A DNA stretch of 64,000 nucleotides from Medicago truncatula (Eukaryota > Streptophyta > Magnoliopsida > Fabales > Fabaceae), in NCBI RefSeq assembly GCF_003473485.1, contig NC_053045.1, positions 33,888,494-33,952,493 on the forward strand, given 5' to 3'. The first letter of the stretch is position 1; each line of letters starts with the position of its first letter. Below are positions 444 to 41,465 of this stretch, piece by piece. Under the pieces are notes generated by a model. The model was not told the origin of the DNA and did no database searches. It was given only the letters and a program-made list of their open reading frames with translations. Position numbers and translations under genes: made by a program.

Positions 444-3400
444 TCACACCATTGCTCCCTTTGCTTCCTTGTATAGTTGATCAATACAATCCTGAAATTG
501 TTGGCAACGAAAAACATTTTATTAATTTGTGTACATGAGTAACAATTTATATAATTAGCTAGTAGCAAAAAATGAAGATAAATTTGAACTATGATGAAAT
601 AGAAAGTTAGTAGCTATACAATATTGACCAGAGAATAAGGGACAAACCTTATAGTGCTTTAGCAACTGTGGTCTCTTCAATTTGAATGTTGGAGTTATTA
701 GATCTCTCTCCACATCAAAGGGAACTGGTTCCAGATGAACTGCTTTTACCAGCTCAAAACCTCTAAGCTGAGAAAATCAATCATGTCAAATGTAATCACT
801 AAGATAAAAAGGTAGCATAACATCAGAAATTAAGCACATGGTGGACATTGTATTTACATACTTGATGTTTCTGACCAGTGATGTTGAGCTCATCCAAAAT
901 ATATTTTCTTGCCTTTGGATTTCCACATAAAGATTTAAAATCATCAGACAATTCATGCTTCGCTGCCCAATCCTCAAGGGCCTGTCTTTCAGGGATCACA
1001 ACTGCCACCAAGAAAGATTCAAAACTATTTCCATACACCCAAATCTGCGCGCAAAATAAAAACTTCATACATTAATGGAATTGCGTGAATTTGACCATTC
1101 TTAAATCTTACTTAAACTTTTCTCATAAAAAACTTGAAATCAAACAATATATTATATGATTAATAAAGCAGAAACATACCGAAGCTATAAGAGGGCACTG
1201 CAAGTACTTGTTTTCGATATTCTCAACAGCAACATATTCTCCTTGAGACAATTTGAAGATGTTCTTTTTTCTGTCGATAATTTTCATGGCTCCATTTGGC
1301 AGCCATTCTCCAATGTCACCTGTAATGATTTTTCAAAGCCTTCTAAAACACACAATATTTATAGGCAAACTACAAACTTTAACAATCTATGATTCTAATG
1401 CGGCGTTTATTAGAGGGAAAACAAAAAGGCGGAAAGTTATAAGGTCATGACAGACCCACCGTTAATTCAAACATCTACTAAGACAGCATGAGGACTTACC
1501 TGTATGAAACCAACCATCAACCATAACCTCTTCAGTAAGATCTTGACGCTTGTGGTAACCGGAGAACAAGGTGTTCCCTCTCAGGCAAATTTCTCCACGC
1601 GGTTGACTGGAGAGTGCATCATATCCCATCTCTGGCACGGATTCAAGCCTTGCTTCAATGGCTGTCATGGGAACTCCAACCGTTCCCATCATAGAAAACA
1701 CATTAGATATTGCACTGAAACACCCCGAACAACTTTCAGTGAGACCTGTAGCACCAAAATGATAATAATGGATTACCATGTAAGCACTTCAATGGAATAC
1801 ACTCCTCGAGAATAAAAAAGTGAAATCAAATCATCACGCTACAACAGTTGTTCTGTGTTGAGTGTTTTCATCACATTGATATAAAACAATCCACCTCTAT
1901 TTTTAACCAAAGATTCAAATACTATAGTATACCATATCCTTGTGCCAATGGAGATCCAAAAGTGACCCTCAGAAACTCTTCTACGTGCCTAGACAAAGGA
2001 GCAGCCCCTGATAACAACATTCGAACTCGTCCACCCAATGTTTGTTTTATCTATCAGTAAAGTCAGCATTTCAAGTTTCAAACAAAATTTATGAACTAAA
2101 AGTCGAAATCACAGTTATAAAGTGGAGTACCTTGTCAAACACAAGCCTATCAAAGAAAGGCGCTGCTTTGTCTTGTGGAAGACCATTATTTAGATATCCC
2201 AACTTGCTGTCGAAGCATTCTAGATTAGTTAAACAATTCGATAGAAATTATAAAGGTAAGTGTCACAGAAGAGAGTTCAATGGCAAAACATACTAGTTAT
2301 ATGCATACTGAAACAACGCCTTTTTTATTGATCCTTCTGATGAAATTTTGTTATTGATACCTTCAAGTGCAAGTTAAGCTTATAGTCAATTTTCATATGA
2401 CAATGTAGTCACACAATCAGATTTAGGATAAATTCAATGCTTAGGACATTATTAAATAAGGTATATACAACAAGATTATAGCAGTAGGCATCAGCACAAG
2501 AAGCATTATAGCCTTACCAGCGTAAACACGATCGTAAACTCGAGGAACGCCACAAAAAATAGTTGGTTTCAGTGCTTGAATATCTTCCATTAAGAATCTA
2601 ATATCCTGGAAGAATCAACACAAAAATTCCATGAAGAAAATACTTTTAGAGATTGAGCCAGGAATTACTATTAAGAATGAATCTGAATCGAAAGCTTACG
2701 CCTTGCCAAAACCCAATTGAGGCGCCCTTGAAGATCGAATAGGTCACCATTATCTGGTCATATACATGAGCAAGAGGAAGAAAAGAGAAGTACACGTCGT
2801 CTTCGGTTGCCTACAAGTAGTACATAACATGTATTGGTGTCAACATTGAGAATGACATGTTAGATGTATAGAGAAACTTCTATAATAGAAATTGAAACAT
2901 AAAGATTATCGTCGCTTGGCGTGATTCACACACTTATAGATAAAGAAAAACAAATGAAATAATTAATGAAGGACTTGTAAAAGTATTATTAGATGAAACA
3001 AGTGAATCATAGAGGAAATGAAATATCTTACCCCTTTGTCTGTTAGAGAAAGCATTTGGTCAACGGACAACACTTCAGACATGAAAGCTTCGTTCTTAAT
3101 AACGACACCTTTTGGTTCACCAGTAGTTCCACTTGTGTACATGATTGTGCAGATGTTAGTCTTATTTTTCAATGGTAGATCCAAATCCAGACTTCCCTGG
3201 AGAAATTCAGATACAAGAAAAAATTAAATCAAAATAGAAAAATCGCCTATTTGATCACAATGGTCCGTCTTGTCAATTATAAAGTATTAACATCAATAAC
3301 CAACTGAAAATTAGAGTTCCTACCAACTGAAGAAACTCTTCCCATGAGAAGCAGGATGCACCAAGTTCCTCAACTTCTTTCTTTTGTGTGGTTGAAACAT

Positions 3401-5638
3401 TCCCAAAACTCACAATAGCTAATCCATTAAGTTACAGAAGTTAATTGGTTAGTTACCATTTACAAGATGGAATAAAAGAACCTTAGTAACAAAAGAACAT
3501 AGAAAGGTTAGTCCTACTTTTAAGATTTGTACACCGCTCAAGACATGACAAAATCTGTGGAAACAAAAAAGGAAAAATAACAATTAAACAAAAGATGCTG
3601 AAAGATGTCTAAAATGGTAAGCTAATTATAGAAGGAATTTTGTGCTCCAAGGAAACAATAATGAAGAACCAGAATGTAAAAGATTGTGCTCCAAGAAATA
3701 GAATGAAACTTACAGAAGGAATTTTGCTTTGCTGCACAAAGGCTATAGAAACTTCAGCATGATTTATGATAAACTCCACAGCATTAGGTCCTGTTTATGC
3801 ATAAATACATGAGACACTTACCAAACTCTTAAGTTCTTAAATTCACAAGGTGAAGGTACGAAAACACAAACCTAGGGTGTCATATAATGGGGCATATGTT
3901 ACTGCATAGCTGTTACAAGCCTGCAAACACCAAATTTCAATGATTCAGCAAAGTGCTATTGCAATACTTAATAAGGCAAATCATATCATATTATAACATG
4001 TTTAACATACTAAACAGTTGCTTAATTGTAATTTTCCCTACAAAGATAAAGTGACATACCTCCATTGCAATTATCCATTCAGGACAATTGGATCCATATA
4101 TGCCACAACGGTCACCCTTGTGATACAAGAAACACCAGTTAGATTAACTACATAAATTTTATAATACATAGTATAGTCTGTAAATATAGGAAGAACAGTT
4201 ACAGGATTGACACCACGGCTCCTCATGGCGGAACCAATTCGGACGGCAGCATCATAAGCCTCTTCATATGTGACCCATTCATAGGTACCAGCCTGAAAAT
4301 TCAATTGAATTCTCTCATAATTTATCTAATTCAACACAAAACTGATTTTGGTGGTGGTGGTGGGGTGGGGGGTATGAGGGGCTATTTGTCATAAATTCTA
4401 TATGGGTCCATTATTAATGTGTTAATCAATTAGAATAATTAATATGTCAGCAATCAGCATGTGCCTATTCAATATATCCAACAAATGTTCTTTCAAAAAA
4501 ATATATATCCATCAAATGTAACACAACAGTAAAATCTGTCCAAAAACAAATGTTAGTCACTAGCTAGAGTACTACTTGCACTACTTTACTTTGCTTTCTT
4601 TGATTGTATTTCTTCTATTACTGGCAATCAAATGCCTTGAGCTTGCTTGTGTAAAAAAAAATATTGAATCAAGAAACATAATCAACACAATTTTCAATTA
4701 CTCTTCTTTTTTTTTTTTGGTCAAAAATTACTCTTCTATTATATTGTAATATTATGTGTCCCTACTTATAAACCTATTTTGATACAAACAAATATGTATT
4801 ATCACAATATATATAAGTCCATTAATTAATAGATCCATTAGTTATTATTTCACAAAAAGGTATAATTAATTAATTAATTGACAATTTGATCACAAAATAA
4901 ATTAATTTACTATTTTTTGGTGTCATTGTTTACCTAAAACATTAAGTAAATGAAATGTTGGAACATAACACAAAATAAGCAAATTTAATACACTACTAAA
5001 CAACAATAGCTGAGCTAAAGCTACTCTAATCTTTTTATATATTAAAAAAAAAACATAATAAAACAAAAAAAACTACTCTAATCTAAGTAATTTAGTAATA
5101 AATTATACACATAAAAAAAAAAAAAAAACATGAATGAAAGTTACCTTTGAATCCGTTTTTTGACGCCTGCCCAGCATTGGTTTGCTAGGGCACCTTGCTG
5201 CAGAGTCCCTGCACAAAGAACCATCAAAATCAAAGTTCTCAGATGTGCACCGAATAATATCAAGACTAATCGAAAGATTATCAAATGGCCCATTAGCTCA
5301 GTTGGTTAGAGCGTCGTGCTAATAACGCGAAGGTCGCAGGTTCGAAACCTGCATGGGCCACTTTTTATCATTTTTTTTACATATTTTGTTCTTTATAGAA
5401 AACGGATTTCACTGGAGCTTTTTTGAAGTACACAATATAGATCATGAAACTTTGCATGCTAATTTTGTATTTTATGAGAAAGAAAAAACCTGAAAAAATC
5501 CCATGGAGATTGAAAATGAGAAGGTAACTCCAACAAACCATCTTTAGCATAGATGCATCTATACACAGGACCTGCTGATGGTTTTTCATGACTTGCTGGT
5601 CTTGCTTCTTCCACTTTCACTGTGTATACATCCACCAT
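444..5638 (-). CDS. LACS2: Long-chain acyl-CoA synthetase, LACS2 type (19 exons, complete)
   Basis: Activates long-chain fatty acids to acyl-CoA with ATP; plant LACS2 enzymes act at the ER and feed cutin and wax synthesis. Exons from the start: 5490-5638, 5145-5208, 4203-4292, 4060-4116, 3872-3920, 3714-3790, 3518-3554, 3324-3418, 3032-3196, 2700-2810, 2518-2605, 2294-2360, 2131-2206, 1933-2050, 1500-1745, 1180-1319, 862-1044, 648-767, 444-491. They join in phase to 659 residues, close to the family's ~660. The AMP-binding motif [11 protein letters not shown] lies in exon 9, GYGLTES spans exons 14-15, and GWFHTGDIGEW then [18 protein letters not shown] span exons 15-16. The N-terminus ([19 protein letters not shown]) is closer to remembered Arabidopsis LACS2 than to LACS1 or LACS4. 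No frameshift or stop is seen. Intron 1 carries an antisense tRNA gene. Family is certain; the LACS2 subtype is inferred from similarity. Confidence 0.95.
5287..5360 (+). tRNA. tRNA-Ile (anticodon AAU)
   Basis: A complete 74-nt cloverleaf. The acceptor stem GGCCCAT pairs with ATGGGCC, followed by discriminator A. The D arm is GCTC/GAGC with an AGTTGGTTA loop. The anticodon stem TCGTG/CGCGA encloses loop CTAATAA, giving anticodon AAT (IAU after editing). The T arm is GCAGG-TTCGAAA-CCTGC. No intron is present, and CCA is not encoded, as expected for a nuclear gene. A T run at 5362-5366 provides a Pol III terminator. It lies in intron 1 of the LACS2 gene (5209-5489), on the opposite strand. Confidence 0.97.
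5362..5366 (+). terminator. Pol III terminator of tRNA-Ile
   Basis: Run of five T starting two bases after the tRNA 3' end, with a second longer T run at about 5371. This is the normal Pol III stop. Confidence 0.8.
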
Positions 5639-7740
5639 TGTTGTGATTCCCAGCTATGATGAACAACAAATGAGGTTTTTTGTTACCTTAAAGTCTATCT
5701 CTGTGGGGGAAGTAGTAGATAGATATATTAGTGAATTTAACAAGGGATGGTGTTGGCAGAGTTGGTTGAGGTGAATTAAAGCATTAAATTCCAACATTAC
5801 GTTTTGGAAATGAATATAACTATTTTTCTCAGACCTGTTTTTATTATTAACCTCTTTTCTGTTGTTTTGTGACTTTGCCTGTTTTGAGTAAGCCATTCAC
5901 ATTATGCATTTATTTTGGCTGGGGAAGTTTGGTGAACCTTACGTACCTTTATGTTTTATTTTATTTTTGAAACAAGCTTACATAACTTTGTATATCCCAT
6001 CACATGGACAAATCAAGAAACAAATTCATAAGGGTGTATTTATAACGATCTATTATAAATCATGTATTCTTTACGCGCAACTACATCTCTTCTTCAAAAG
6101 TTTTATTTGCGTTGTATTTTTTAGTTAAATTTAACTCAAAACTTCAAATCAAGAATGAAACAATCTAAACTACTCATTTAAGTGTTGTTGGATCAACAAA
6201 TAAATAATAAGTAAAATATTTAGTTAAATTAATGATTTAGAAACTTGTAATTGTCTTTTATTTCCAATGAATTTCTTCAAAAATCCACAATTATCTAAAA
6301 ATGGGGAGGCCAAAATTGTAAATTAGATAAAAATAGACCTAAAATTGTTTTTTGTTTTGGCCCAGTAAGAACCATGAGTTTTTTCTTTTACAATAAAATA
6401 AACTCATTCAAATATTGAAATAAAGTGAACACAATAACAATCATATCATTCATTTATTTATTTCAATAAAATGAAAATATTTCTGTTTTGGAAAATATTA
6501 ATGGGTACTCTTAAGACATTGTTTAATAACTTTAAATAGTAAGTTTTTATTAAAGCTTATGCAATTAATGCATTGAAAATTAAATTTTTTGACTTTTTTA
6601 AAGAATAATTTCTTTATTAGAAATCCTTAAAAAATGTCGTTTAGACACTCGTTAGTAAGATATTTTCGTTTTTACCTTTTACTATCGAAGTGTGTGGCTA
6701 ACTATAAAAGATTTGTGTATTACTTTTCCACCCTATGGCCTTCTCCCGCGCCCTGTAAAATTTTCAAAAATGCTTTTGTGCATTCCGGATTTTAAAATCC
6801 GGATTCATGTTTACAATTTTGGATTTTATAATCCGAACAATTCTTATGTATAATCAGCCATCAGACTCTCTCACATTTCAACAGTTTTGAGTTTTGCTTT
6901 TAAAAACAACAAAAAAACTAAGTAAAAAATGCTAAAAACCTGTCAAATAAAATCATATAAATATAAAAATAGTACCAAAAAATTCTAAAAATCAAATAAA
7001 ACTAATGCAAATTTTTTCAGATTTTTCTGAGAATATAAAAATTAAAAATGGGTCTAAACGATGGAATTTTGGATTTTGAGGGGCGGAGTCCCGTAAGAAG
7101 TCTCTTCTAAGGGAGTCATGGTCCTTGAATCTTTTCTGATTTTCTGGGGAAGTTTCGGAGCAATCTGATCAAGTAGCCCGAAAACCCGATTTTTGACTAA
7201 GAACAGGTAACAATCACCCAAAAACATAAAGATGAGAGCTAGGAAGATTGATATTGTCCTTAAAATGACTATCCATGTTACAAACATGTTTAGAATTTGT
7301 GCTAATACATTTCGGATCATATAATCCGAACTGTTTTACCTTGAAAAAGGGTGTTTATGGGGTTTTCGGATTATGTAATCTGGAAACATCATGTAATGCG
7401 CCCTATTTTTTGAAATTTCCGGATTACAAAATCCGGAAAAATCCATTACTCATTTTTTTCACCTTTTAACAAAAAAAAAAACATCATTCCGGATTATAAA
7501 ATCCGGAAACTCAATGATATTTTTGAAAAAGATGGGGCGCGCGAGGAAACCTATAGGGTAAGAAAAGTAAATCCCAAAAGATTTTTGGTTGTGTCAAATC
7601 AAATCAAGTCTAGCTCCTAACGTGTGAATTGTCAATTCACCTCTTAAAATTGTAACAGGCCAATCATGTCACGACCAATAATCAATGCATACCTCCAAAA
7701 ATATAATTTTGAATTCCTTTAAAAAAAGTTTAAGACATAT
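5639..7740. other. Intergenic, LACS2 upstream region and palindrome-bearing repeat
   Basis: The first few hundred bases hold the LACS2 promoter. From about 6720 to 7560 the DNA carries at least six short imperfect palindromes with core CCGGATT...AATCCGG (near 6783, 6823, 7311, 7364, 7419 and 7486). A minus-strand ORF at 7054-7320 (88 residues, hydrophobic N-terminal half) overlaps this repeat and matches no family I recognise. No conventional gene is seen. Confidence 0.5.
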
Positions 7741-7744
7741 ACTT

Positions 7745-9161
7745 TAAATTAGTTTTTTTTGGGCGGTTTAGGGTGTTTGGAAGAAGCGGGTCATGTTGGA
7801 GTTGAACCTTTTCCTTTTGATATATTTGTTGTTTGCACAACCACATATTATGTCGTTTGCCTTACTTTTTGTTTGCTGGTTTCCGATGGGCAGCTTAATT
7901 TTGCTTCGAGATCGGGAGTCGGTGTCTAGCTGCAATCTTGTTTGGCGTGATGTGGTGTTTCTCTGGTGTACCGGAGGTGAGGAGTGCCCGTCTTATTTGG
8001 TCCTAAAGTCTGGTGGGGCGATCACTTTTGATTCGAGATCGGGAGTCAGTTCTTTGGCTCAAGTTTGATTTTGGGCTTTTTATTGTTTCTTTCGGTGGAT
8101 CGGAGGTCGATAGGCAGTGGAAGCTGAATGATCTTTCGGAGAGAAGCTTTTTGGATGTGGTTCAACTTTGATGTTCAGGACTGAAAGTTTAATTTTGAGG
8201 GGTGTTTTTCTTTGGGGGTGAGTAGTGACGATGAATGATGTTGGATACCGATTTTACAGTGGCCCTTTTCGTGAAGGAGTTTGTTTTAGGTGATGACTTG
8301 TATTTTGGTGGGTGTTGTCCTCAGGGGCAGTGGCGGAGCTAGGAATTGTATGTAGTGGGGGCAATATTCTACGTATATGTAATATAATAGTTAAGAATGA
8401 AGGTGTACATCATAATATGTTGAAATTTGGGACCTAACTCATCCTTACAAAACCGGCTTGTAAGGTGAGGATTGCCTCCTCTTTATAAACTCTTATCAAG
8501 AGTCTTGTCTATCCGATGTGGGACTTGGGTTTTTCCCAATATAATATTCTCTACAACTATCTAAACTATGAAAATACATGATTGTTTTATAAAAATGAAG
8601 AATAACAATTATTTCATTTTTTTTAATAAGAATAAAAATTATTTCTAACACTTCCTTAAAAAAAATCTAACACAAATACACAATCATGTTATATATTGAT
8701 TGTTAAAATAAATTAAAATTGCCATTATAAAAGTATTTAGATACAAAATATGAAATATAAATTTAAGTATACTTGTGTTTTTAAAAAATAAATTGAATTA
8801 TACTTATCATCAAATTATTGTGAGGGACAAAAATTAATGAGGTGGAAATTTTTCTCATGTGTTGGATTGCTGGTAAGGAAACTGATTAAAATTTTAACCA
8901 ATTAAAACTACCCCAAAGTTCCCTTAAAAATAAAGCACCCCAAAGTGGCTGGTATATATATTGGATTGAAAATAGTGGTGCAGACAGGAGCCCCACACAG
9001 ATGAGAGTGGCTCCGCCCCTGTTCAGAGGTGTTTTTATGGTGTTTATTTTCAGATGTTCCGTCTATATACGGCGCTTTTTATTTGTATTCTCAGTTATAC
9101 TGGTCTTTGTTCGTCTTGAACATGGATTATGTTGTTTAACAAAATTTGCCGTTAAAAAAAA
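7745..9161 (+). mobile_element. LINE-like 3' relic split by an hAT-like insertion
   Basis: Two pieces (about 7745-8327 and 9022-9161) appear to be one older element. The right piece ends in an A run at about 9151-9161, as a non-LTR retrotransposon would. The G-rich, low-coding left piece resembles the 3' untranslated part of legume LINEs. The assignment rests on the A-tail and overall look; no reverse transcriptase is preserved. Confidence 0.4.
8328..9021. mobile_element. hAT-like non-autonomous element
   Basis: The left end reads CAGTGGCGGAGCTA and the right end is its near inverse (TGGCTCCGCCCCTG), a 14-base terminal inverted repeat. The 8-bp flanks CTCAGGGG and TTCAGAGG agree at 6 of 8 positions, consistent with a decayed hAT target duplication. 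The 694-bp interior has no transposase. Inside, at about 8430-8540, sits a segment with a TCCGATGTGGGACT core seen in other short plant repeats. Confidence 0.6.
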
Positions 9162-9491: not shown

Positions 9492-12400
9492 ATGTCAATG
9501 ACAAACGAATCAAGTTGGGTTGGTAGAAAAGCCGTCAAACGCATTGGTGGAATGTCCGATGCACTGTCAATCGCCGCCGATCTCGGCTTCTCCGTCTCCT
9601 CACCTTCATCTTCAACCCACGAATCACTTCATAATCCACCCACAACATCAACGGGTGAAAAAGGTGAAGACTTGATCAGGGTTTTGAGAGAATTAACTTC
9701 TGTTCAAAGAAAAATTGCTGATTTGCAAGTTGAACTTCAAGGGAGAAAGGTAAGCCTTTTTTATTTGTATGGGTTGGATTGGATCTGAATTGATTTTTAT
9801 GTAAATGGGTTTTTTTTTTTGCTGAATTGTATATTTTTTTGTGATTTTTAGGATGATAAAAATGTTGCACATTTGACACATGTGAGTGAAATGGAGAAAA
9901 AGATTGAGACTTTGGATAGGATTACTACTATTCTTAAAGATGTTATTCATAATAAGGTAATTTGCTCCTATTATTGTTCTCATTTTTCAGTTGTTGGTTA
10001 ATTTTCTTAGCAGTTATTATGTGATATGTGATTTAGTACAAGTATTGTTATATGACGTAACAGAGATGAGAATGTTGTGTTAGATGTGTGGTAAGACTAG
10101 ACATGATATGATTGGAAATGAAAACAATAGAAAAGAGTTGGGGTAGCACCTATCTTAGAAAAGAAAGGTGGAAAATCGGCATAGATGGTTTGGACACGTA
10201 GAGCGAAGACCTATAGATTATGTTGTAAGTAGAGTAGATCAAATGGAGGGTGATCAAATCGTTAGAGGCAAAGGAAGACGTAGAAAACCATAAGAGAAAC
10301 TATTAAGTAAGACTTGGGGATTAATGAGTTGGATAGGGATATGATATATCATAGAACATTATAGTGTCATTTGATCCATGAAGTCGATCCCATTTAATGG
10401 GATAAGGCTTGGTTGTTTTTGTATTGTCAAATAGCAGCTATATCACTGTAGCAAAGTGGAATTTGAACAAATTCCTATTTTTCGCGATTCACGGTTGACA
10501 ACATTGAATTCCGACTAGTATTACGTATTAATAGTCAAACAATAATAAGAAGATTATTAGGTTGTTTGATATAGTTTGTGATTAAAATAAGCTACTTAGA
10601 CTAGAAAGTATTGTCTCATTTTATGTTTTCTTCTCTTGTTTTTTGTTTTGTTTAATTAGTTCCTAATTCCTATTTTGGCGTGTCATTAAGATATTCCTAT
10701 GTGCTTTCAGACATAATTTTTTTCTAAAATTTGGCAGGATCGCATAATTGCTCGTCTGCAGCAGCCATATTCCCTGGATTGCATTCCTGTTGAAGCAGAA
10801 TATCAGGTTGGTGAACATAGTTTGTTATTGAAATAAGCTACTTAAACTAGAAAAGGCACACAAATTTGTTGAATTGATGAACACTTGGACATGTAATAAT
10901 ATTTTGGTTGTGTTAGTAGCATTACACATGGGTAAACATTTTTCTTTGTTGTATTTAGTTCTTGATTTTACTAGATTTAGTCTATAGTGTGATAGTTGTA
11001 TTACTTTGCTGTTTGAATAAAGTATGTTAACCGTAAAATGTGGCGTTCAAGATAAAACTTGATAACATGACTTCAATTGAAACTTTTAGACTTAGAAATA
11101 AGATGATAAAAGATTACGTTCTGCATTAAAAATTGTAAATTGAAGGACTTTATCTATTTGCTTTACCATTTTTATTAGACATTGGAAATCATGAATATAG
11201 TTAGCCACTTTGTATATCAACAATGTTTAATTGGGGCATCTGTTATAAATAATACATATGTAGTTTGTAAACAGGCTTAAATATTTTTATGAGCTATGCA
11301 GTATCTGATAGTGATCTACATGATTTCATTCAATCGTTCTCAAAAAACTTAAGCTGTTGAACTGAAGTTTACACGTGCAAATGTTTTGTACAACAAAGTT
11401 TAATACAGGGATTATGTTTAAATTTATATCTTAAATCTAATAATATTTGCCTGTTGAAGTCTTTTTTGTCCCCGTTACTTTACCTATTTTCCCCAATGGA
11501 TATAAATTTAATCTTGGTGTAAATGATAAACTATTACTCCCTCCGGTCCTTATTATAAGAAATAATTGACTTTTTAGGTTCACTGTGTAAGTGATGTATC
11601 TAGTCTCTATTTATAACGAGATACATTAATTATCCAATGAACATAAAAAGTCAATTGTTTCTTATAATAAGGACCGGAGGGAGTATAATATTATTGAGTG
11701 TAATTTTCAGTCAATGTAGGATAGATTGTAATGCTTGTGTCATATGTTTTTTTATTTATGCAGAAACAATTCTCTGAACTACTGATGAAGGCAGCTAGTG
11801 ATTATGGTGCCTTGACAGCATCAGTGGCAGATTTCCAATGGAGTCAGAATTTTAAGGAACCTCCTTCGGTTTGGGGGGTATGCTTCTACGATCATTACAT
11901 TGTTTCTTGATATTGATATTAGGACTTTCTGTTTCCATTATAATAACTCAAACTTGTTTGCGTTACTGGAACCTAGTTTTCACTTACTATCGTATGTTGC
12001 CTACCCTTAATGTCTGTGGTTGCTTGGATGCACCAATAACATAACTTAGTGACAGTGGATTTAGTTTTTATACTGTGTTTCTTTATTTAAGTATACTTGA
12101 CATACCAAAATTGCTCTACGTCATCGGTTAACCTGCAAATACCTACCACGAATGAATTTTGAAAATAGTTATGAGGGAAAGTTTGACATGTGAAAGATAA
12201 TCCTGTGACCTTGTAGTTTTTATTTTTATTTTTTAATTATATTATATTAGAAACTAAACTTGGTATTCCTTGCTTGTTTAGAACCATATGCATTGTATTT
12301 GTACCACATTTCAGTGTTTTTAAAGGCAACAAAGTGCATAGAGGCACTACATTGAGGACATCTCTATGAAGAATAATAGACAATAACTTTGTGTTTTCTG

Positions 12401-16752: not shown

Positions 16753-16955
16753 TTCAATTGTTTTCGTTTTAGAAAATTGCTTTTCTGACATAGAATTGCT
16801 ATTGACACAAGTAAATGACGTTTTTACCTCAGCGGCAGTTAATGTCGTTAAGCTATGCGTTGTGTTCGTGATATATTCACCATCTTTCTCTCAAATTTTC
16901 ACTCACTCTCTCTAAAAAAACTCTACCAAATCATCCAAAATTTCTTTCAATCACA

Positions 16956-17271
16956 AGTAAGTTATCACTTATGCTATTGTCATACATTTTAGTTAGTATA
17001 TGTGTTTATATGTTTATAATTTTAGTTTTTGTTTAATTATTAAATTTTGAATTTTTGTTTTTAATATAGTTATGTTGTAGATCTGAAATGCTATTAATAT
17101 ATATTATGAATACATGTTATAATGAAGTTATATTGCTTAAATTTATGTTTTTTTTCGAATTTTATAAATTTTTTAGGGTTTGTTTAGGATTTGTAGAGTT
17201 TATGTCAAATTTTCACTACAAGTGTTTGAATGAGTTTTTCATTGATTATTTTTAATTTCTAATTATGTAGA
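16956..17271 (+). other. Probable intron in the 5' leader of the 115-aa ORF gene
   Basis: A donor CAA|GTAAGT near 16956 and an acceptor TTATGTAG ending near 17271, about 10 bases before the ATG at 17281, suggest a spliced non-coding first exon. The preceding ~100 bases are CT-rich, as plant 5' UTRs are. Inference from splice signals only. Confidence 0.45.
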
Positions 17272-17280
17272 TTTGAAACA

Positions 17281-17628
17281 ATGGTCGGGTGGATCAACGT
17301 TCATGCACAATTCAACGGCGGAGAACCTCAGAGGTTGAAGGTTCGATGTTTTGGTGTAACGTTAAGAGGTCTTAATGATGAACTGGCTGAATTCAACCAA
17401 GGAGTCAACCCCGGAGACACAAGGAGGGTGGAACACATTCGGTATAAACGTCCAACGCTCGACGAGGGGAGAGTATCATTCACTTGGGTGGAATTAACGA
17501 ACGACGAAAACGTGACGAACATGTTTTGGGAGCACAACATGTTCTGGTGGATCGATATGCGGGTAACGTTGCTGAGATCAACTGAAGATATCATCAACAA
17601 CTTGATTCCGCCAGAAGATCGTCATTAG
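17281..17628 (+). CDS. Unknown 115-residue protein, probably transposon-related
   Basis: Single ORF starting MVGWINVHAQFNGGEPQ, with blocks LKVRCFGVTLRGLNDELAEF, PGDTRRVEHIRYKRP, RVSFTWVELTNDENV and MFWEHNMFWWIDMRVTLL, ending in EDRH. Base composition and codon use are clearly richer in GC than the flanks, which supports a real coding sequence. I cannot assign a function. The layout (a globular N-terminal domain lacking a catalytic part) recalls the small N-terminal domain that precedes some Mutator-like transposases in legumes, but no transposase follows. Two long hairpins begin 11 bases after the stop and may lie in the same transcript. A minus ORF across the same DNA is a shadow. Confidence 0.55.
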   Translation: MVGWINVHAQFNGGEPQRLKVRCFGVTLRGLNDELAEFNQGVNPGDTRRVEHIRYKRPTLDEGRVSFTWVELTNDENVTNMFWEHNMFWWIDMRVTLLRSTEDIINNLIPPEDRH

Positions 17629-17638
17629 TTAGGGTAAG

Positions 17639-17972
17639 GTGCATTCCAACTGCAACAATTGTCTTACCTCTAAAATGGGGTAATTCAAACTTGTCAAACG
17701 GCCATGACTCAAGCATTTCGCCAAGCATTCATGTTTTTCCTTTGAAAATATTAAATTCTTATTATGCTGGTTTAGATGAAGGTATTAAGTGTCAAGAAAT
17801 AAACCTCATTTCGTTGGCACTTGAATATCATCATCTAAAGCAAGTCTAACAAAAAATTATTCTTTTCAAAGGAAAAACATGAATGCGGGGCGAAATGCTT
17901 GAGTCTTGTTGTTTGACAAGTTTGACTTTACCCCATTCGAAGGTAAGACAATTGTTGGAGTTGGAATGCACA
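17639..17972 (+). ncRNA. Long near-perfect hairpin 1 (candidate hpRNA or young MIR-type locus)
   Basis: The left arm starts GTGCATTCCAACTGCAACAA and the right arm ends with its complement. Pairing continues with few mismatches for about 165 bp per arm, leaving a loop of only about 8 bases near 17797-17804. Transcribed in either direction it would fold into one long duplex, like inverted-duplication precursors processed by DCL proteins. No mature miRNA that I know is present. It could instead be a foldback transposon. Confidence 0.6.
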
Positions 17973-17973
17973 T

Positions 17974-18174
17974 CCCAACTGCAACAATTATCCTACTCTG
18001 GATTGGGCAATTCAAACTTGTTAATCGGCATGACTCCAGCATTCGATAAGCGTCTTGAACGCTCGTATTCAAGCACTTGAATACGAGCGTTCAAGACGCT
18101 TACCGAATGCTGGAGTCATGCTGCTTAGCAAGTTTGAATTTGCCTCATTCAGTGGTAAGATAATTGTTGCAGTT
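17974..18174 (+). ncRNA. Long near-perfect hairpin 2, paralogue of hairpin 1
   Basis: The arms start CCAACTGCAACAATTATC and end with the complement. About 100 bp pair, with a loop of about two bases at the centre of CGTATTCAAG-CA-CTTGAATACG (about 18074). The central ~30 bp per arm pair without mismatch. The outer halves of the arms match hairpin 1 (TCAAACTTGT, CATGACTC, AGCATT in the same order), so the two hairpins arose by tandem duplication and then diverged. Confidence 0.65.
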
Positions 18175-18507
18175 GGAAGTTACATTCCGGAATGTAATGT
18201 AATGCAATGTAATGTGATAACATATATAGTTGAATATGCATAATACATTTTGTTTTGAATGGAACAATAATTATCTTATTTATTTACTTTTCGAATTTAT
18301 TTATTCATTACGCAATTTTAATTAGTTGAATTCACATTAAATTTAATTATTTTTATTCGAATACGCAATTATTTGAAACGCAACTTTAATTAAAATTATT
18401 CCAATAATGGGGTTTAGGTAAAATTTGTGTAAAAACCATCATCCAATTCCCCTTTATAACTCGTATTTGGGGAAAGGAAAAGAAAAGGAAATAGAGACGA
18501 GATAGTA

Positions 18508-18816
<309 letters not shown>

Positions 18817-19191: not shown

Positions 19192-20253
19192 CCATAGTTT
19201 TAAAAATTGGACCGGAATCGACTCGGTCAAGGTACGGAATCACTAAATCATTGGTCGAACCATTGGATCACTAGTCGAACCGTATGACTGAACCGTATTA
19301 AACTGGTTGACTCGATAGTACGACTCGATATCTATGAAAAACTTGTTCTATGATTTATCTTTATTATTGAATCTGATGTTCCGGTTTGTAAAATATTCAA
19401 GTGTCATAGTACTACTAAATAAAATAAAACAACATAAGATAAATATAAGGCTTAATTACTCTTTTGGTCCCTTAACTTATTTTTTGGTTTCGTTTTGGTC
19501 CCTTAACTATTAAAAGTTTCGTTTTGGTCCCTTAACTTACTTTTTGGTTTCATTTTGGTCCCTTAACTATTAAAAGTTTCTTTTTGGTCCTTTAACTTAC
19601 TTTTTAGTTTCGTTTTGGTCCCTTAACTCTTCCTCCGTCAACCACTTTGGTCCTTTATGTTAGGATGAATGTATTAGAGTTAAGGAACCAAAATGAAACA
19701 AAAAAAATAAGTTAAGGGACCAAAACGAAACCAAAAAATAAGTTAAGGGACCAAAACGAAACTTTTAATAGTTAAGGGACCAAAAGAAAACCCAAAAATA
19801 AGTTATGGGACCGAAATGAAACTTTTAATAGTTAAAGAAACAAAACGAAACCAAAAAATAAGTTAAGGAACCAAAAGAGTAATTAAACCTAAATATAATT
19901 ATGTATATGGATTAAGTACTTTTTTTTTTGTACAACATGCAATAAAAAAATTGAAGGGTGATAAGATGTTCAATCTATCTAAATTTTTGTTCTTTGTTTC
20001 TTACTTCTTCTTTTTAGTTCCTTCATTTTTCCTCAAATCCAGATCTACTATTTTTTTCAAGAAAAAATTAGAGTTCAAACATTGAACCGATCGGTTGGGA
20101 GAAACCCCTGGGTCGCCGGTTTTAACCGATTTCTGCCGGTTCTCACCGGTTCATTAACATGACCGATCCAATAACCAGATCGGATCGGTTACCCCATCGG
20201 TTTATGGTTCGATCGGGTCAACCGGTTGATCCAGTCCGGTTTTTAAAACCATG
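19192..20253. mobile_element. MULE-like element with GGTTTTTAAAAC-type termini, carrying a nested MITE
   Basis: The left end (ATAGTTTTAAAAATTGGACCGG) and right end (CCGGTTTTTAAAACCATG) are inverse to each other, and the subterminal parts are dense in CGGTT and ACCGG words. A different MITE sits inside at 19449-19889. No transposase. A related relic lies at 23812-24005. Class assignment is inference from the termini. Confidence 0.5.
19449..19889. mobile_element. Mutator-type MITE with 9-bp target duplication
   Basis: Terminal inverted repeats GGCTTAATTACTCTTTTGG and its near complement extend over most of the element, because each arm contains tandem copies of a TTTTGGTCCCTTAACT unit. Flanks TAAATATAA at 19440-19448 and 19890-19898 are identical, a 9-bp target duplication typical of Mutator-class insertion. 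Confidence 0.85.
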
Positions 20254-22025: not shown

Positions 22026-22277
22026 AATGGAGTACATGTGGCTGCTTTTTATTGGTGTTAGGTTACATGGGTATTGCCCATGTGTTTGTAGATAGGCCAC
22101 CAAAGCTAAAGAGCAAATCAATTATAGCTCCATCAATGACACTCCAACAAAACAATTATGGCTCCATCAATGATACTCCAACAAAAAAATCACTTTTGGT
22201 TTAGGTTAGGTATGTATCCGTAACAAAAGCCACTTTGGCTTGAATTGGGTTTGGCCTCCGTAACAAGGGGGAGTCTA

Positions 22278-22624
22278 GGGTGCGTGAGTAAGTTATATCT
22301 CGCACGGTACACATGTTATGACCAACCATTGGATATAATCCTTATCATGCACCTTTAAACACTCAATTATTTCCTTTGACTCTGTCTCAATCCTTCTCTC
22401 TCTCTCTCTCTCTCTCTCTCGATTCTCTCATCTGTAACCATCTTTCAACGTTCATACAATTGCATGGTTGCTGAATTCAGGTTGTACATATATGTTCAAA
22501 ACCAGATCCAGGTTGTGTGAGTGAGTTATACCTCACACGGTACGCAAGTTCTGACCAACCATTGGATATAATCCTTATCATGCACCGCCAAACACTCAAT
22601 TATTTCCTTTGACTCTGTCTCAAT

Positions 22625-22661
<37 letters not shown>

Positions 22662-22749
22662 CTCTCATCTGCAACCATCTTTCAACGTTCATACAATTGC
22701 ATGGTTGCTGAATCTAGGTTGTACACATAAGTTCAAAACCAAATCCAGG
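22278..22749. repeat. Two-copy ~233-bp tandem repeat with internal (CT)n
   Basis: The blocks GTGAGTAAGTTAT, ACCAACCATTGGATATAATC, the CT run, and CATACAATTGCATGGTTGCTG recur in order 233 bases later (ACCAACC at 22321 and 22554). The CT tracts differ in length between copies. No coding content is recognised. Confidence 0.85.
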
Positions 22750-24530: not shown

Positions 24531-27500
24531 ATGGAAATTCTCCCCTCCGACGAAACCCCACCGGAAACCCCCGCTATTCCCGAAAACCCCACAACTCCGA
24601 TCGACAATTCCCCAAACCCTACCGGAATCGAAGAAGGTGTAACCCTCGACGTATCGGGAAAAAATCTGGAACTTCCGGTACCGGAGAATTCTTCAGACGA
24701 TGCAGTGGAGAGTTTGTATATGTACAAGAACGTTTACAGTTTGATTCCGAAGTCGGTTGGTGGTTTAATGCGGTTGAAAACGCTGAAATTCTTTGGAAAT
24801 GAGATTAACTTATTTGCGCCGGAGTTTGGGAACATGACGAGGTTAGAGAGGTTGCAGATGAAGGTATCTTCGCCGGGAATTGGTGGGTTGCCGTTGCATA
24901 AATTGAAGGGTTTGAAAGAACTTGAGCTTTCTAAGGGTCCTTCTAGACCTTCTGCTTTTCCTATTTTGACTGAGATTGCTGCTCTCACGTGCTTGACCAA
25001 GCTTTGTATTTGTCATTTCAATATAAGGTTTGTGTTTTTTTTTGGAGGGTTTTAGGTTACAAGTTAATAATTGTTATTGATGTTGTTAATTTGTTGGGAA
25101 AAATGTGTTTTTTATGGAGGATTAGTTTTTGTGTAGTGTCTTACATTTTGATTGTTCACTGTTTTTTTGGAAGGTAGTTAGTGTGTAGTGTCTTACATTG
25201 TTCTCTGTTTTTGTATAAGGTTTGTGTTTTTTACCTCTTATGATGTTATGCTTTTAACTTGTTTCAACTAAACTGTGTTTGTTGCTTTCACTTTTTTTTG
25301 AGGGATTTAGTTTACAAGTTAACAATTGTTATTGATGTTGTAAGTATTGTTGCAAAAAATGTGTTTTTTATGGAGAATTAGGTTGTGTGTAGTGTCTTAA
25401 ATTTTGTTGCAAAAAATTTGTTTTTTGAGGAGAATTAGCCTGTGAGTAGTGTCTTAAATTTTGTTGCAAATAATGTGTTTTTGAAGAGAATGAACCTTGC
25501 ATTTGTCACCTTGATGTTATGTTTAACTTGTCTCACTTTTTTTTGAAGGGTTTTAGTTTACCAGTTAATGTTTGTTATTGATGTTATAAATATTGTTGTA
25601 AAAATGTGTTTATCATGGAGAAGTAGCATGTTGGTAGTGTCTTACATTGTGATTGTCTTCTGTTTTTGACTGTAGATATCTTCCTCCGGAAATTGGATGC
25701 TTAACGAATCTGGAATATCTTGATCTTTCATTCAATAAAATGAAGACATTGCCCCCAGAGATTAGTTCTTTGAAAGCATTGATATCAATGAAAGTTGCGA
25801 ATAATAAGTTGGTAGAGTTACCGCCGGCTTTGACCTCACTATCAAGGTTGGAGAATTTGGACCTGTCAAATAATAGGCTGACTTCGTTAGGATCACTTGA
25901 ACTTAGCTCAATGCATAGACTTCAGAATTTAAGTCTTCAGGTACCTTGCTTTGATTTGTAAAATTGTGCTAATTCTGCAAAAATAGGTTTTTTAAGTATC
26001 TGCGTTCTTAGATGGTGCTTTTGCTGCTTCTGACTTTGCTCTGTGTGTGGGTTTTTATGCCTATATATACAGATACATATACTGGTTTTGCTTACATATT
26101 CCCGCTTCTATCATGGGATGAAGAATATATATTAAAACCCTGTACCCTTTTACAAAATCGTTGTGAAGAGGGAGGGGGATTAGAGTGGACTAGAGTATGG
26201 TGTAGGAGTAGGACTTGGGAGAGAAGAGAGAGAAACTGAAAGTTTTACAGAAAAAATTCAATAACATTAATGCCCATCAGTTCAGGTTGTTTAAAAATTA
26301 CTCCCTCTGTCCCAAATTGTACGACGTTTTGGGCATTTCACACATATTAAGAAATGTAATTAATATTGTGTGGGAAAGAAATATTATGAGTTGTTTTACA
26401 AAATTATCCTTAATAAATGATATGTGAAAGATAAATGAAAGAATTGAAAAAAGAAAGAGTAATAAATAGTTAAGGATATAATAGGAAAAGTAACATTGAT
26501 GTTTCATTGGTATTCTAAAGTGACATACAATTTGGGACAAATATTTTTTCTAAAGTGACATACAATTTGGGACGGAGGGAGTAATAAAGAGAGGACTAAA
26601 GTGCAATTCCACTTGAAATGAACACTCACCACCCTTGTTCTTGTAATGACGTGGCACTTTATCCCCTAGATCTAATGTCCGTTTGCTGCTGGTTTACAAG
26701 GATCTTTTTGCTGCTTCTTCTTTCTTGGTTCTCTCCTTTTGTATCAATCTTCCTCCCCTTTATGAAACTTTCTGCCTTTCTTGTGCAACGTGTCATCCTA
26801 TAACAACACCATCAAGCCAGCAACTAATGCTTCTGTTGTGAGAGAGAGAGACATTTACAACGTTGTTGAAATGTAAAACGGGAAAATATAACTTGATTAA
26901 GTTCAATAACCATTTATAGAAGAATAATATTAAGAGCGAAAGAATGAGAAACTGCACACCAATCTAGATTTGGTGTGCCAAGGACCATAGCCATTAAGTG
27001 CTATGTATTTCTTGAAGTACTGTGGTATAGAGAATCCCATAAACACAGAGAATCCTAGATGAATTAAGTTCATAAGCTGTTTATATAGCAACATTAAAGG
27101 AAATTGATGCCTGTAAAATCTGTGTTGTAGGGGAAAATATCAAATTAAAAGGGTGAACTAATCAAACATTAAAAAAATATGACAAAAGCCAGATTCTTGG
27201 GTTGATCATGCCTACCCACACAGGCAAAGAGAAGGCAATATGGTTGAGCTGATTGCTATATAAACTGAGCTCAGGACAGCAATGGTTGAGAGATCAGTAA
27301 ATTGATCCAACAAGAGTGCTTTGCTGGTTTAGTAGTTGAACATGCTAATGACATGAGAACACATCCTTTTCTATATATATACAAATAGGATAGGAAACAA
27401 ATCAATTGTAGACCAAACAGACATAGATCACAGGGTTGTAGCTGATTGCAAATGATAGACTTGAGTTCACGGTAGCAATGGTTGAGAGATCCGTAAATTG

Positions 27501-30500
27501 ATCCAACAAGAGTGCTTTGCTGGTTAAGTAGTTGAACATGCTAATGACATGAGAACACATCCTTTTCTATATATATACAAATAGGATAGGAAACAAATCA
27601 ATAGTAGACCAAACAGACATAGATCACAGGGTTGTAGCTGATTGCAAATGATAGACTGAGTTCACGATAGCAATGGTTGAGAGATCCGTAAATTGATTCA
27701 ACAAGTGTTTTGTTGGTTAAGTAGTTGAACATGCTAATGAGATGAGAACACATTCTTTTCTATATATACAAATAGGAACGGAAACAAATCAAGAGTAGAC
27801 CAAACAGACCGCAACCAATTTGGGATTTGAGTGCACGAAGCTCACCAGAAAAGACAAAGGCTTGATACTCGTCTGATCAAATACCTCAAGGATCCATAAA
27901 GTCCTTAAGAGTGCATTCCCAAATGGCTGATTTTGTTTGCTAGAATCTGATGTGCAACCTATATTCTGTTTCCTTTACCTGAATGTACGTTTAATATGTA
28001 TTTAATTTGGTGACATCTGACAGTGTTTCTCATGGAGGGACCGCATTGGAGGTGCCTCTGTGCATCCAAGGTATTGATTTAGTAGATGTAGCTTGCCTGT
28101 GTGAGTAGGTCAAACTATTATGATTTTGGTTGCTTGCAGTAGTGCACATATATCTCTATTCTACGTAACTTCTCTTCTGTGTGTTATTAGGTTCTAACTG
28201 TAATTTATTGATCAGGATTTTTTGAAAATTTCCTATGATTTTCATATGGTAAAGTTGTTTTTAACATATTTGTTTTTACATTTAGCACAACAAGCTGCCC
28301 AGCATTTTTCAAATTCCTTCATGGATATGCTGTAATATGGAAGGAAATGATGGTGATGGATGCAAAGATAGTTATAGCAGTTCTTCTGTTGAAATGGATG
28401 TCTATGAAACCAATTTGCTGGAAAGTGAGGAAACCTTTTCTCATGGTGAGGCGCCTTTCCATATTTGCCCCCCCTCCTTTTTTGTGTACGCTCTTCCCTT
28501 CTGAATTGTGGATGATTAAATTCACGTGTTTAAATTGGAGTTTCACTTTTCTATGCATTCTTTTGCAGGACCTGATACCATCTCTTCAAGCGTATTAACA
28601 AACTCCTCATCTAACAGTAGATGTTTTGCAGCCTGGAAGTCGTCAGGTAAACGGTGGAAGCGGCGACACAGTAAACAGCATAAAACTCGTCAAGAGCAGA
28701 AAGCTCGTCAAGAGCGGTTGAATAACAGCAGGAAGTGGAAAGGTGTAGATCATGATCAGCTGTTAAGCAAGAAGATCCACAGAATTTCTGAACCAGAAAA
28801 TCTGGATACTCTTGTCTCTGAAAACTGCACAGAAACTGTCTCAGACAATGGAAGCCTGGATGACAATCATAAAAAAATATTCTCGGAAGAAGCAGCTCAG
28901 AACAATTTAATTGATAATATCGACAATGATGAGGTAATCATTGAAAAGCAGTTTTCTCAAGAAGATTGCTGCACTGCAGAAAGTAAAGATGAACGAGATG
29001 CATCCTCATGCTCCTTAGACAATGGGCAAAGTGAACAGGATGGAGCATCTTGTTCAGATTTTTCGAAGTGTAGTTTTAAAACAAAGAGGCATTCAGATCG
29101 GGATCTTGATAATCCTAAACCCTGCAAGTCTAGAAAACCGATTGGTGATGGCTCATTATTGTCTTCCAAGTACAGTAAAATTTCATTTTGTGGCACTGAG
29201 GACCATCTATCAGATGGCTTTTATGATGCGGGGCGTGATCGTCCGTTTATGCCTCTTGAGAATTACGAGCAAAATCAGTGTCTTGCTTCTCGTGAAGTCA
29301 TCCTCTTAGACAGGTACATTATTCCTACTGCTACTACTACTACTACTACTACTAGTATATATTTGTGATTCTTTTTGGGGGTACAAGTAAATTAGTAACA
29401 GTAGTAGTCATAGTAATATATATTGGTATCTTTTTTGCGATTCATTTTTATATAATACGATTGGATTGGATTATTTTGTTGTGTTTCAGACAAAGGGATG
29501 AAGAATTGGATGCCATTCTGCTATCTGCTCAGGGACTGGTCTCTAATTTGAAGCAGTTAAATGGTTTAAACAAATCTGGGAGCCAGGATGAAGTATATAA
29601 CTTGCAGACAGCATCACTGCTTGCACTCTTTGTATCTGATCATTTTGGCGGAAGTGATAGAGGTGCTATTATAGAAAGGGCACGCAAATCTGTTTCTGGC
29701 TCAAACTATAGTAAGCCTTTTGTCTGTACATGTTCGACCGGAAGCAGCACGAGTATAAATGCTGCAACTGAACCAGTTGTCAATGCCATAGAAGATATCA
29801 ATCTTTCTATGATCTCTGAAAAATCTCTTGATTCTATAAAAAAAAGGCGAAATTCAATCATTGTTCCAATTGGCTCTGTTCAGTACGGGGTCTGTAGGCA
29901 CAGAGCTCTTCTTTTTAAGGTGAGAAGTGTTGTTATATTCATCATACCATTTTGTTTATATACATATCTTAGTGTAACTTTTTCTTTTCTTACCTCTTAT
30001 TGCAAGGATCTAATCCAAGTTATTTTGTTTACAGTATTTATGTGATCACATGGAGCCACCTGTACCTTGCGAGCTAGTTAGGGGTTACCTGGATTTTTCA
30101 CCACATGCCTGGAATATCATTTTGATAAAGAGGAGTGATACATGGGTTCGAATGCTTGTTGATGCTTGCCGACCTTATGATATTAGAGAAGAGAAAGACA
30201 CCGAATATTTCTGCAGGTATTTACTGCCGCTGAGTAAAAGTGGATGTGCTAGTCCCTTTCTTATTATAAATAAGCAGCTTGGCTTGCTACATTCTATAAC
30301 ATTTCTATCATTTGAATTGGTTATATTATACAATATTGCTTTCATATTTAATATTTATTTTATATGTTGATGTGTTGAAATATAGATTTCGTTATTAGTT
30401 CTGTTTCCCTTATTATTAATCAACAATCATTTGGTGGTTTAGCACTTGGATTCGGTTTTGAATATTGGATCTGATATCATATTGTAGTATACAAAGAGTA

Positions 30501-39225: not shown

Positions 39226-41039
39226 TTAATTATTTGATTGTTTTTAGCTAACATTAATTATTAGACTAATTATTGGTTTTTAAATTGATCTTATTTATTA
39301 ATTGAAAAAAAATCTTATTAGATTTTTTTTAGCTAGCATTAACTATTAGACCGTTTGGTTTAGAAATTGAGAAAAGATGAAGAACTAATTGGTTACAGAG
39401 CACCTAGTTTAATTCAATTGAAGACAATGTACCTTGCTAATTGTACATAGTTTGATATATGATTTGTTGTCGCTCTTTACCTGCGCATGTTACGCATAGT
39501 TTGATACATTACATGAGGATAATGTTTCATGAACATCTTTTTTTCTATACACACGTTGTACCATCCTATGTGAGAGTGTGTGTGAAACAATAAAAGTGAG
39601 TTTTTTGTGTATGTGGGGACTACATGAATACATGTCACAATTATGTGTGGATGTACAAGTGGTACATGCCACCTAAGATGATCTATGTATCACTACTCTT
39701 ACATTAAACATGCATGTTATTTGTGTGATCTTCAAAATGGAATTTCAGTAGTGCGTGATGGAAGTCGAGAATGTGTTTTGGTTAGCGTCATTAAACACAC
39801 ATACGAGATCATGATTTTTCTTCAAGAAAATGTTATAGCAACGACAATGCATTAACCCAATAATTCATGTATTAGGTATTTGGAGCAAAAAAATCATGCT
39901 CAACGAATCAGTTTTGAATTTACTAAGATCTTAAGTGTGTCACAAATGTATAATACTGATTACTGACTGGGTAATACAACTCTCATGACGTTAGAGTTTT
40001 ACCAATACTCTCTTTTTTTTTCCTAACGTCAAAAGAAATTTCTATTTTTCCTTCGTTTTTGTTCAAAGCATTCTTGTAGACTATATAGTTTTCGAAAAGC
40101 TTTTTCAAACTAAATTCAAAGATTTTCTTTTAAACGAGGCAATTCAAACACACAAAATATTGGACTATTTTTCCCACCACTGATTTTTTTATTTTTATTT
40201 TTTATAGTAAGATTTTAGCGCATCATATCGTTTATGAATATTTTGGTGGATGTTTACTTCCTAAGTCTTTTCATGAGTCAATAATTGGAGACATGATCTT
40301 ATTTCTTATGTTTGATGATGCATTACGTTAGATCCTTAATACGCTTGTAAGTTTCAAAACTTATGTTCTATAAATATGAACTATGTATCATTGTAAATGT
40401 ATACTCCTTCTTTCACATGAGTTATCATAATTTTAAATTAATTAAAATTATTCTTACAACTAGGTCTTAGGGATTAGATTCGTGGAGCAAAGCTTGAGAT
40501 TTAGGAATGTATATTTCGGTCTCACCTTCAAATCTTCCATAGATAAGTTTATACATGATGAAATTGATCTCATGAATTAATTGATCTTAAACCGAATATC
40601 ATATTTCAGTTGAATAAGATATGATGATATTGGTCTTCCGAATTAATCGATCCTTAAACTGAATGTCAAGTTTCAAAAAGAAAAACAACATAAAAATTGT
40701 TTTTTTTTTTTAACAATACCATGGAGAGATCAAATGTATGGTTTTATTTCATCACTTTCTTGCATTGGGATTCAATGGCTTAATTAAGGTGGAAAAGTCA
40801 TAGTAACTTTAATATAATTGTGTGTTTTATGAGAGAGAAAAAAACGAAAAAGAAATAATGAACAAGACGAGAATCAGAATAGTATAAGAGAGATAAATAT
40901 AAAGTCATCGTGACTTTTCCACATTAAAATTACTTAATCCTAATCCATGTTCATCTATCTAGTAGTAGCCCAACATATTCAATTATTTCACAAATTTGTG
41001 AGAATCAATGTGATATATTTTATCATACAGTTAGTCTAT
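39226..41039. other. Intergenic region, with one MITE-like foldback
   Basis: No gene is recognised. At about 40770-40945 the sequence TTAATTAAGGTGGAAAAGTCA is mirrored by TGACTTTTCCACATTAAAAT, giving a ~170-bp foldback that looks like a MITE; its target duplication was not determined. Confidence 0.45.
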
Positions 41040-41465
41040 ACAAGCCAAATGAAAAATGACTTAGTACAAACTGCAATACCATCTTCTTTCTCCAACCATT
41101 ACTACTACCCACTAAAATAATTATAGTAAGCATTTAAAACACAATCTATAAAATAGATAGTGACATACATGCTTTACATCTATCATGTCACTAGCTCTAA
41201 CTAAAACAAGTAAAAAGGGTTCCATATAGCATTTAATTTTCTAACTAATAAGTCATTTTCCTAATCACCAATAGCATCAAATATTTCCATTATGTGGTAT
41301 ACATGTGCAACTGGCACCTACCTTATACATCAGAAGCAAGTATTCGACAAATGGAAAATTCGCAAGAGTAAAAAAAAAAGCTACTTAAAAATTGTTGTTG
41401 AGTTAAGAGATGCTTTTTCTTCTTTCTTCTTGATGCTTGATGATGTATGAAGTAATGCACTTCCT
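41040..41465 (+). repeat. Left arm of ~410-bp inverted repeat flanking MIR167
   Basis: Matches, in inverse orientation, about 44484-44893. Shared order includes the GACTTAGT words, AATTATAGTAAGCATTTAAA-like, TCTATCATGTCACTAGCTCT, AATATTTCCATTATGTGGTA, and AGTTAAGAGATGC. Identity is high but with small indels. No ORF; content unidentified. Confidence 0.8.

Follow-up and report, generated by a model that had tools for sequence, protein, structure and literature searches.

The 64,000-nucleotide stretch of the Medicago truncatula genome analyzed here (contig NC_053045.1; G000:C4:33888494-33952493; hereafter the window) contains two tandem long hairpins directly behind a small open reading frame (ORF1), and the question raised by this locus is whether the hairpins belong to the host or to something that moves. 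A preliminary description of the window had proposed a young MIR or hairpin-small interfering RNA (siRNA) locus. The analyses presented here make it very probable that the window holds a 3'-truncated copy of a Mutator-like element (MULE), whose core is formed by a leader, ORF1 and the two tandem hairpins, and that this core is a transposon-borne source of hairpin siRNAs. The MULE interpretation was adopted because of the dispersed copies of the repeat, its long terminal inverted repeats (TIRs), the 9-bp target site duplications (TSDs) and a 6.9-kb relative carrying both the core and a convergent transposase gene.

ORF1 (115 amino acids; 17281..17628, + strand), the small ORF of the element, was recognized by its recurrence among copies, and the hairpins begin 10 bases after its stop codon rather than 11 as first described. 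Hairpin 1, a MIR2592-type stem (17639..17971, + strand), and hairpin 2, a copy of hairpin 1 with a shorter tip (17974..18176, + strand), were identified by folding in comparison with shuffled sequences, by arm alignment and by matches to published miR2592 small RNAs (miR2592bl in the case of hairpin 2). The minimum-energy fold of hairpin 1 has 142 pairs, arms of ~163 nt and an apical loop of 7 nt; folded with its flanks, it reached -196.5 kcal/mol compared to a shuffle mean of -72.2 (z -30.9), a value equalled by none of 100 shuffles. Hairpin 2 showed 94 pairs, arms of ~100 nt and a loop of 4 nt, and with its flanks reached -156.8 kcal/mol compared to a mean of -55.9 (z -24.4; equalled by none of 200 shuffles). 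The two tandem, near-perfect long hairpins after an ORF were thereby confirmed, both folds lying below every shuffle; the preliminary description had given arms of ~165 and ~100 bp and loops of ~8 and ~2 bases. Within the window copy, the two arms of hairpin 1 are 83% identical and those of hairpin 2 86-88%. The duplication of the hairpin itself, proposed from its paralogous basal arms, was also borne out: the basal 5' arms of the two hairpins (17642-17717 and 17971-18043) share 83% identity and the 3' arms 81%, and since the tips are also related in two other copies (50 nt at 84-86%), the entire hairpin was duplicated. The hairpin pair measures 542 nt in the window and 567-569 nt in most scored copies. 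No Rfam family reached its gathering score over the hairpins; weak hits to MIR8007, MIR4208, MIR2606 and others, with scores far under the cut-offs, were rejected. The placement of the hairpins directly behind ORF1 agrees with the suggestion that the ORF and both stems are carried by one transcript, which is so far predicted from sequence.

Searching the window's own genome (430 Mb) with the hairpin pair yielded 424 candidates, 40 of which were scored, and all 40, window included, matched the query. Coverage was almost full in 38 of them and limited to 435 of 542 bases in the other two; the matches are distributed over eight contigs (C1-C8) and, the window excepted, are 82-91% identical. The search with ORF1 DNA (40 scored of 484 candidates) showed 93-95% identity, again excepting the window. 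The comparison of the arms with the genome, as recommended in the preliminary description, consequently revealed a dispersed repeat. ORF1 was present in 29 of the 30 loci fetched via the hairpins; L022, a fetched stretch without ORF1, was excluded. Of 52 distinct fetched places, 11 that did not hold both ORF1 and the hairpins in full had been excluded from the core alignment beforehand, and this alignment is therefore uninformative on how often ORF1 and the hairpins co-occur.

The ends of the element were examined in 31 fetched stretches, which represent 30 distinct places. In 20 of the 31, inverted repeats of 43-159 nt were detected at the outer ends, separated by 2.5-3.1 kb, and among these 20 a 9-bp TSD was perfect in 11 and contained one mismatch in two, the remaining seven having an 8-bp match or nothing clear. 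Perfect 9-bp TSDs were also found in L063, L064, and L067. Three end types were distinguished, namely A (GAAAATTGC...), B (GAGAATTGTTGTTCCCACAT...), and C (GAATTCTGCTCATTACCCAA...); the type B pattern occurred 439 times with up to 3 mismatches and the type C pattern 401 times with up to 2, and the reversed controls gave no occurrence in either case. Complete copies extend to the 3' TIR, and those of groups A, B, and D add a second small ORF (ORF2) on the opposite strand. With long TIRs, a 9-bp TSD and a transposase in a relative, the repeat is a MULE. An assignment to the miniature inverted-repeat transposable elements was rejected, these being short and non-coding (about 100-800 bp, PMC10004981) and the element being 2.5-3.1 kb long with one or two ORFs. 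The same ends bear on the alternative of a foldback transposon, in which the arms would be the terminal repeats and the hairpin the mobile unit. Long inverted arms and many copies would be expected of such a transposon, but the TSDs lie outside ORF1 and the hairpins and border the 2.5-3.1 kb element, and ORF1 was also contained in 29 of the 30 stretches fetched via the hairpins, which leaves this alternative very improbable. The dispersed copies with target duplications that the preliminary description had named as evidence against its own proposal do exist, the mobile unit being the whole 2.5-3.1 kb MULE and not a foldback hairpin. Regarding a Pack-MULE, no donor gene for ORF1 or the hairpins was found in a search filled by copies of the element itself; L063, the transposase unit, contains nothing corresponding to ORF1 or the hairpins, and the ORFs have no Pfam match. 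One idea, prompted by the sequence, is that the arms might represent a captured exon with a splice donor (ATG...AAG/GTAAGA).

Further analyses revealed relatives that carry a transposase. Four listed type B ends, among the matches listed, are located 1.4-1.8 kb from inward-pointing MULE transposase matches. L063, an element of 4,735 bp with the perfect duplication ATATTCCAT, lacks hairpins and encodes a MULE transposase (PF10551, E 2.9e-26) together with the small ORF3; its TIRs are 80-88% identical to those of group B copies. L064, of 6,892 bp (925 to 7816) with the perfect duplication ATTGAAGAC on either side, contains ORF1 (91% identical) and hairpins 1 and 2, with ORF2, ORF3 and the transposase gene on the opposite strand; a PF10551 match falls within it, and ORF2 and the transposase frame have one stop each. 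L065 is 95.5% identical to L064 over 6,093 bp, in a stretch without a complete right end. The right part of L064 is 92% identical to L063 over 4.7 kb, with the remnant of an inner TIR located at the joint, so that L064 reads as a hairpin unit apparently joined to a transposase unit. Of 1,397 candidates, 40 were scored, and six of these, one of them L064, span this joint completely. Four pairs of ORF1 and transposase no more than 8 kb apart, all convergent, occurred among 150 + 150 listed matches, compared to a chance expectation of 0.84 in any orientation. Transposase partners were sought for end types B and C, the window copy itself being of type A, and none was found for type C.

The small proteins encoded by the element resemble nothing in Pfam, in which neither ORF1 nor ORF2 had a match. 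ORF2 (~81 amino acids; L064 2665-2937, - strand, and L066-L069) is convergent to ORF1 and occurs in copies of groups A, B, and D, being interrupted by a stop in L064; it was not found in group C and is lost in the window copy. ORF1 was without internal stop in 97 of 150 scored places (the best 150 of 799 candidates). Its derivation from a fragment of the MULE transposase was rejected (best match to L063 at E 2.5), as was its paralogy with ORF3, for which BLASTP gave nothing and profile comparison a weak lead (E 0.027, probability 1.8%). The predicted structure of ORF1, with a mean predicted local distance difference test score of 43.7, was not usable. ORF3 (114 amino acids) adjoins the MULE transposase (L063 2823-3164 and L064 3591-3932, both - strand) and is 95-97% identical across three loci; its layout is like that of ORF1 by eye, with a score that is not significant. 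The C-terminal part of the L063 transposase (3520-6144, - strand) resembles an OTU protease domain by eye, which was not reported by Pfam at E 0.001.

The element was then compared with the published small RNAs. In PMC3160423, mtr-miR2592a, bl, bm, and bn are tabulated as sequences of 21-22 nt, with annotated MIR2592 precursors in the form of 130-194-nt pieces; miR2592 is also described, in the account of PMC6311939, as abundant in alfalfa tissues and profiled as a miRNA (microRNA). Matching covered 69 fetched loci, with some places counted twice. MiR2592a was exact in five loci, all within hairpin 1; miR2592bl was exact in one (L014), in the sense 3' arm of hairpin 1; and miR2592bm matched nine loci on the sense strand with at most one mismatch. 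In the window, miR2592a matched at 17872 with 3 mismatches, miR2592bl at 17914 (hairpin 1) with 3 and at 18126 (hairpin 2) with 2, and miR2592bm with 4. The proposal of a MIR or hairpin-siRNA locus thus survives in that stems of sibling copies match the published 21-22-nt miR2592, and falls as regards a young, single MIR; nor is the locus undescribed as a small-RNA source, the miR2592 family having been published. A link between miR2592 and a MULE seems not to have been reported, as far as could be judged from the accessible literature, from which most subscription journals are missing. A young host MIR or hairpin-siRNA gene lying near repeats by chance would agree with the hairpin shape and with the published miR2592 annotation. 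As a single-copy locus, however, it is refuted by the many dispersed copies with ORF, TIRs and TSDs. In addition, as stated in Formey et al. (2014; PMC4212123), the family of 64 miR2592 genes was discarded by a filter, less than 20% of its loci having a pre-miRNA stem-loop, and set aside as probable siRNAs. A host gene of this kind is accordingly judged highly unlikely.

For the MULE, we infer that a transcript would start in the leader and run through ORF1 into both hairpins, which would form double-stranded RNA stems. Dicer-like enzymes could then dice these stems into siRNAs or miRNA-like RNAs of 21-22 nt, perhaps also 24 nt, and these small RNAs would target chiefly the element's own many copies and aid their methylation. 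Candidate small-RNA sites outside the hairpins were rejected as too weak for use. The search with the L066 hairpins gave a site around position 4635 of L064, in antisense orientation relative to the transposase transcript, with 3 mismatches in 21 and 8 overlapping matches (0, 1, and 2 with shuffled hairpins), five matches in L063 (7, 1, and 0 with shuffled hairpins), and two sites in the window (~42353 and ~19272) with at most 3 mismatches (0, 0, and 0).

Some copies of the element are young. In the group L066-L069, three copies were 96.9-98.3% identical to L066 over 2.2-2.9 kb, ORF1 was identical in three and had one residue different in the fourth, ORF2 (81 amino acids) was intact in three of four, and the hairpins formed 255-259 pairs. 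A perfect duplication, TTGAAGAAG, borders L067; none was found in the other three copies, whose mutual likeness reaches the edges of the stretches. Decay was measured against the respective group majority in B2 and C, without the 3' region of group C, which aligned poorly (T>C 3.7%, transversions 9-10%). C>T changes at CG/CHG sites amounted to 3.7-9.1% in ORF1 and 3.8-11.7% in the hairpins, and those at CHH sites to 1.8-4.2%; T>C changes, for comparison with all of these, amounted to 0.5-1.4%. The decay pattern is that of cytosine methylation. In single-copy changes of ORF1, the non-synonymous fraction was 0.689, the hairpin mutation spectrum predicting 0.712 (p = 0.34), and 18 stops were counted vs. 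29.2 expected, or about 20.9 after scaling (p = 0.65). The copies therefore decay as if neutral. Total changes in ORF1 reached 0.72 of expectation and synonymous changes 0.77; the cause of this somewhat lower rate in ORF1 than in the hairpins was not found. The ratio of non-synonymous to synonymous rates between group majority sequences ranged from 0.2 to 2.7, with few changes.

The pairing of the arms was compared among groups and copies. The majority sequences of six groups folded into 253-266 pairs (-370 to -434 kcal/mol), and 42 single copies, window included, into 228-274 pairs (median 249.5; -284 to -399 kcal/mol). Over 44 sequences and 260 pairs, 107 two-sided changes kept a Watson-Crick pair, a number that averaged 47.7 in 300 column shuffles and never exceeded 61 there. 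Because column shuffles keep relatedness and conversion between arms mimics co-variation, selection for pairing is not established. These data are relevant to the possibility that a hairpin small RNA acts on a host gene to the benefit of the element, by analogy with miR820 of a rice CACTA transposon, which acts on OsDRM2 in the account of PMC3459959. The retention of the hairpins across several TIR groups as well as in the relative carrying a transposase gene, the arm co-variation, the intact young copies, the published small RNAs and the miR820 precedent would all suit such a role. Nevertheless, no host target was found, though no proper search was possible, the co-variation is also explicable by conversion between arms, and the single-copy substitutions of ORF1 look neutral; a host target is considered unlikely. 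Only tentatively, and as a rather doubtful extension, it may be proposed that the MULE lineage keeps an RNA interference-trigger module of small proteins and two hairpins, with miR2592 either targeting a host silencing gene in trans or regulating the copies, and that selection for pairing would maintain the module in the spreading lineage while dead copies decay.

The convergent arrangement of the genes raises another alternative, in which the hairpins would serve as a barrier or 3'-end structure between the convergent transcripts of ORF1 and of ORF2 or the transposase, the small RNAs being a by-product. The hairpins indeed sit between ORF1 and oppositely running genes in L064 and in groups A, B, and D. 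However, group C copies retain the hairpins without ORF2, the transposase unit L063 has no hairpins, and arms of ~165 nt exceed the need of an end-forming signal, for which shorter arms should suffice. Such a role is therefore regarded as decidedly improbable.

Several observations weigh against the preferred interpretation of a MULE-borne siRNA source. No outer TIR was found in 11 of the 31 stretches and no clear TSD in some others, and the source of the hairpin arms was not found in a search filled by copies of the element itself. Of the five loci with exact miR2592a, L045 has it in the sense 3' arm and the other four have it in antisense, on the strand complementary to the 5' arm, so that either strand and either arm may be its origin. 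MiR2592bm was exact in none of the 69 fetched loci. The window copy is exact for none of miR2592a, bl, and bm, and its expression is putative. Finally, methylation-type decay was not stronger in the hairpins than in ORF1, which thus gives no sign of the hairpins attracting methylation.

The remaining parts of the element in the window are consistent with a copy of group A. A 5' TIR remnant of group A type (GAAAATTGCTTTTCTGACA...; 16772..16860, + strand) was recognized by its similarity to group A 5' ends (75-87% identity), and in L018 a group A 5' end is bordered by a perfect 9-bp target duplication. The leader upstream of ORF1 (16873..17280, + strand) begins where the group A repeat alignment resumes (16873-16876) and holds a possible intron of the 5' untranslated region, from GT 16957 to AG 17270. 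Between 16881 and 17280 the leader is almost devoid of CG and CHG sites (1 and 1 per 400 bases), and the B2 and C majority sequences contain neither, as if the leader had been eroded by methylation or kept methylation-free. A residual 3' half (18181..18404, + strand) ends at 18404 without 3' TIR and ORF2; the alignments of many copies to the window stop at this position, beyond which those copies still resemble each other, and no match to the 3' TIR was found within the window. Of the two ends of the element, the window copy retains the 5' end alone. An (AG)n array of ~300 bp (18512-18812) lies 108 bp past the break point.

Other repeats were observed in the window. A palindrome of ~464 nt (19439-19902; arms 83% alike), 1.3 kb from the hairpins, matches Rfam MIR2655 on both strands and is probably another repeat-derived "miRNA". 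Palindromes at 11535-11685, 41767-42087, and 57067-57218 (arms 71-86% alike) are likely other foldback or MITE-type repeats, and an inverted pair of ~450 nt (41004-41462 and 44481-44927; 80% alike, 3 kb apart) possibly represents the ends of another element. Direct tandem duplications with units of ~190-240 bp, 87-93% alike, are present at 22274-22749 and 27242-27809.

Comparison with known systems showed partial similarities. The mature sequences of mtr-MIR2592, a very large family, lie within hairpin 1 of sibling copies, whereas a tandem arrangement of the stems, following an ORF and enclosed in a MULE that has TIRs and 9-bp TSDs, is absent from its published accounts as far as these were available. 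MuTAnT of Medicago, as described in PMC4486113, likewise belongs to the Mutator superfamily, has a 9-bp TSD and folds back; it differs in its TIRs (GGGGTTTGCTAGAACA), in that 90% of its copies measure 200-300 bp, and in that its foldback is formed by the TIRs themselves, the hairpins of the window element being internal. The rice CACTA with MIR820 (PMC3459959) is also reported as a DNA transposon bearing a small-RNA hairpin, and there the host target OsDRM2 of miR820 was demonstrated; the window element belongs to another superfamily and has two tandem long hairpins. Maize Mu killer, according to PMC3440606, is a Mutator-derived hairpin proposed to feed siRNA production. In contrast to Mu killer, the hairpin of the window element is a regular part of the element and has no BLAST similarity to its TIRs or transposase gene, with one weak 21-mer site only.

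The results provide a likely origin for miR2592, which with 64 genes in the count of PMC4212123 is among the largest miRNA families annotated in Medicago. They also show MULEs with two built-in long hairpins, one of these MULEs carrying a transposase gene as well, and the near-identical young copies with intact ORFs make it testable whether a transposon benefits from the RNAs of its own hairpins.
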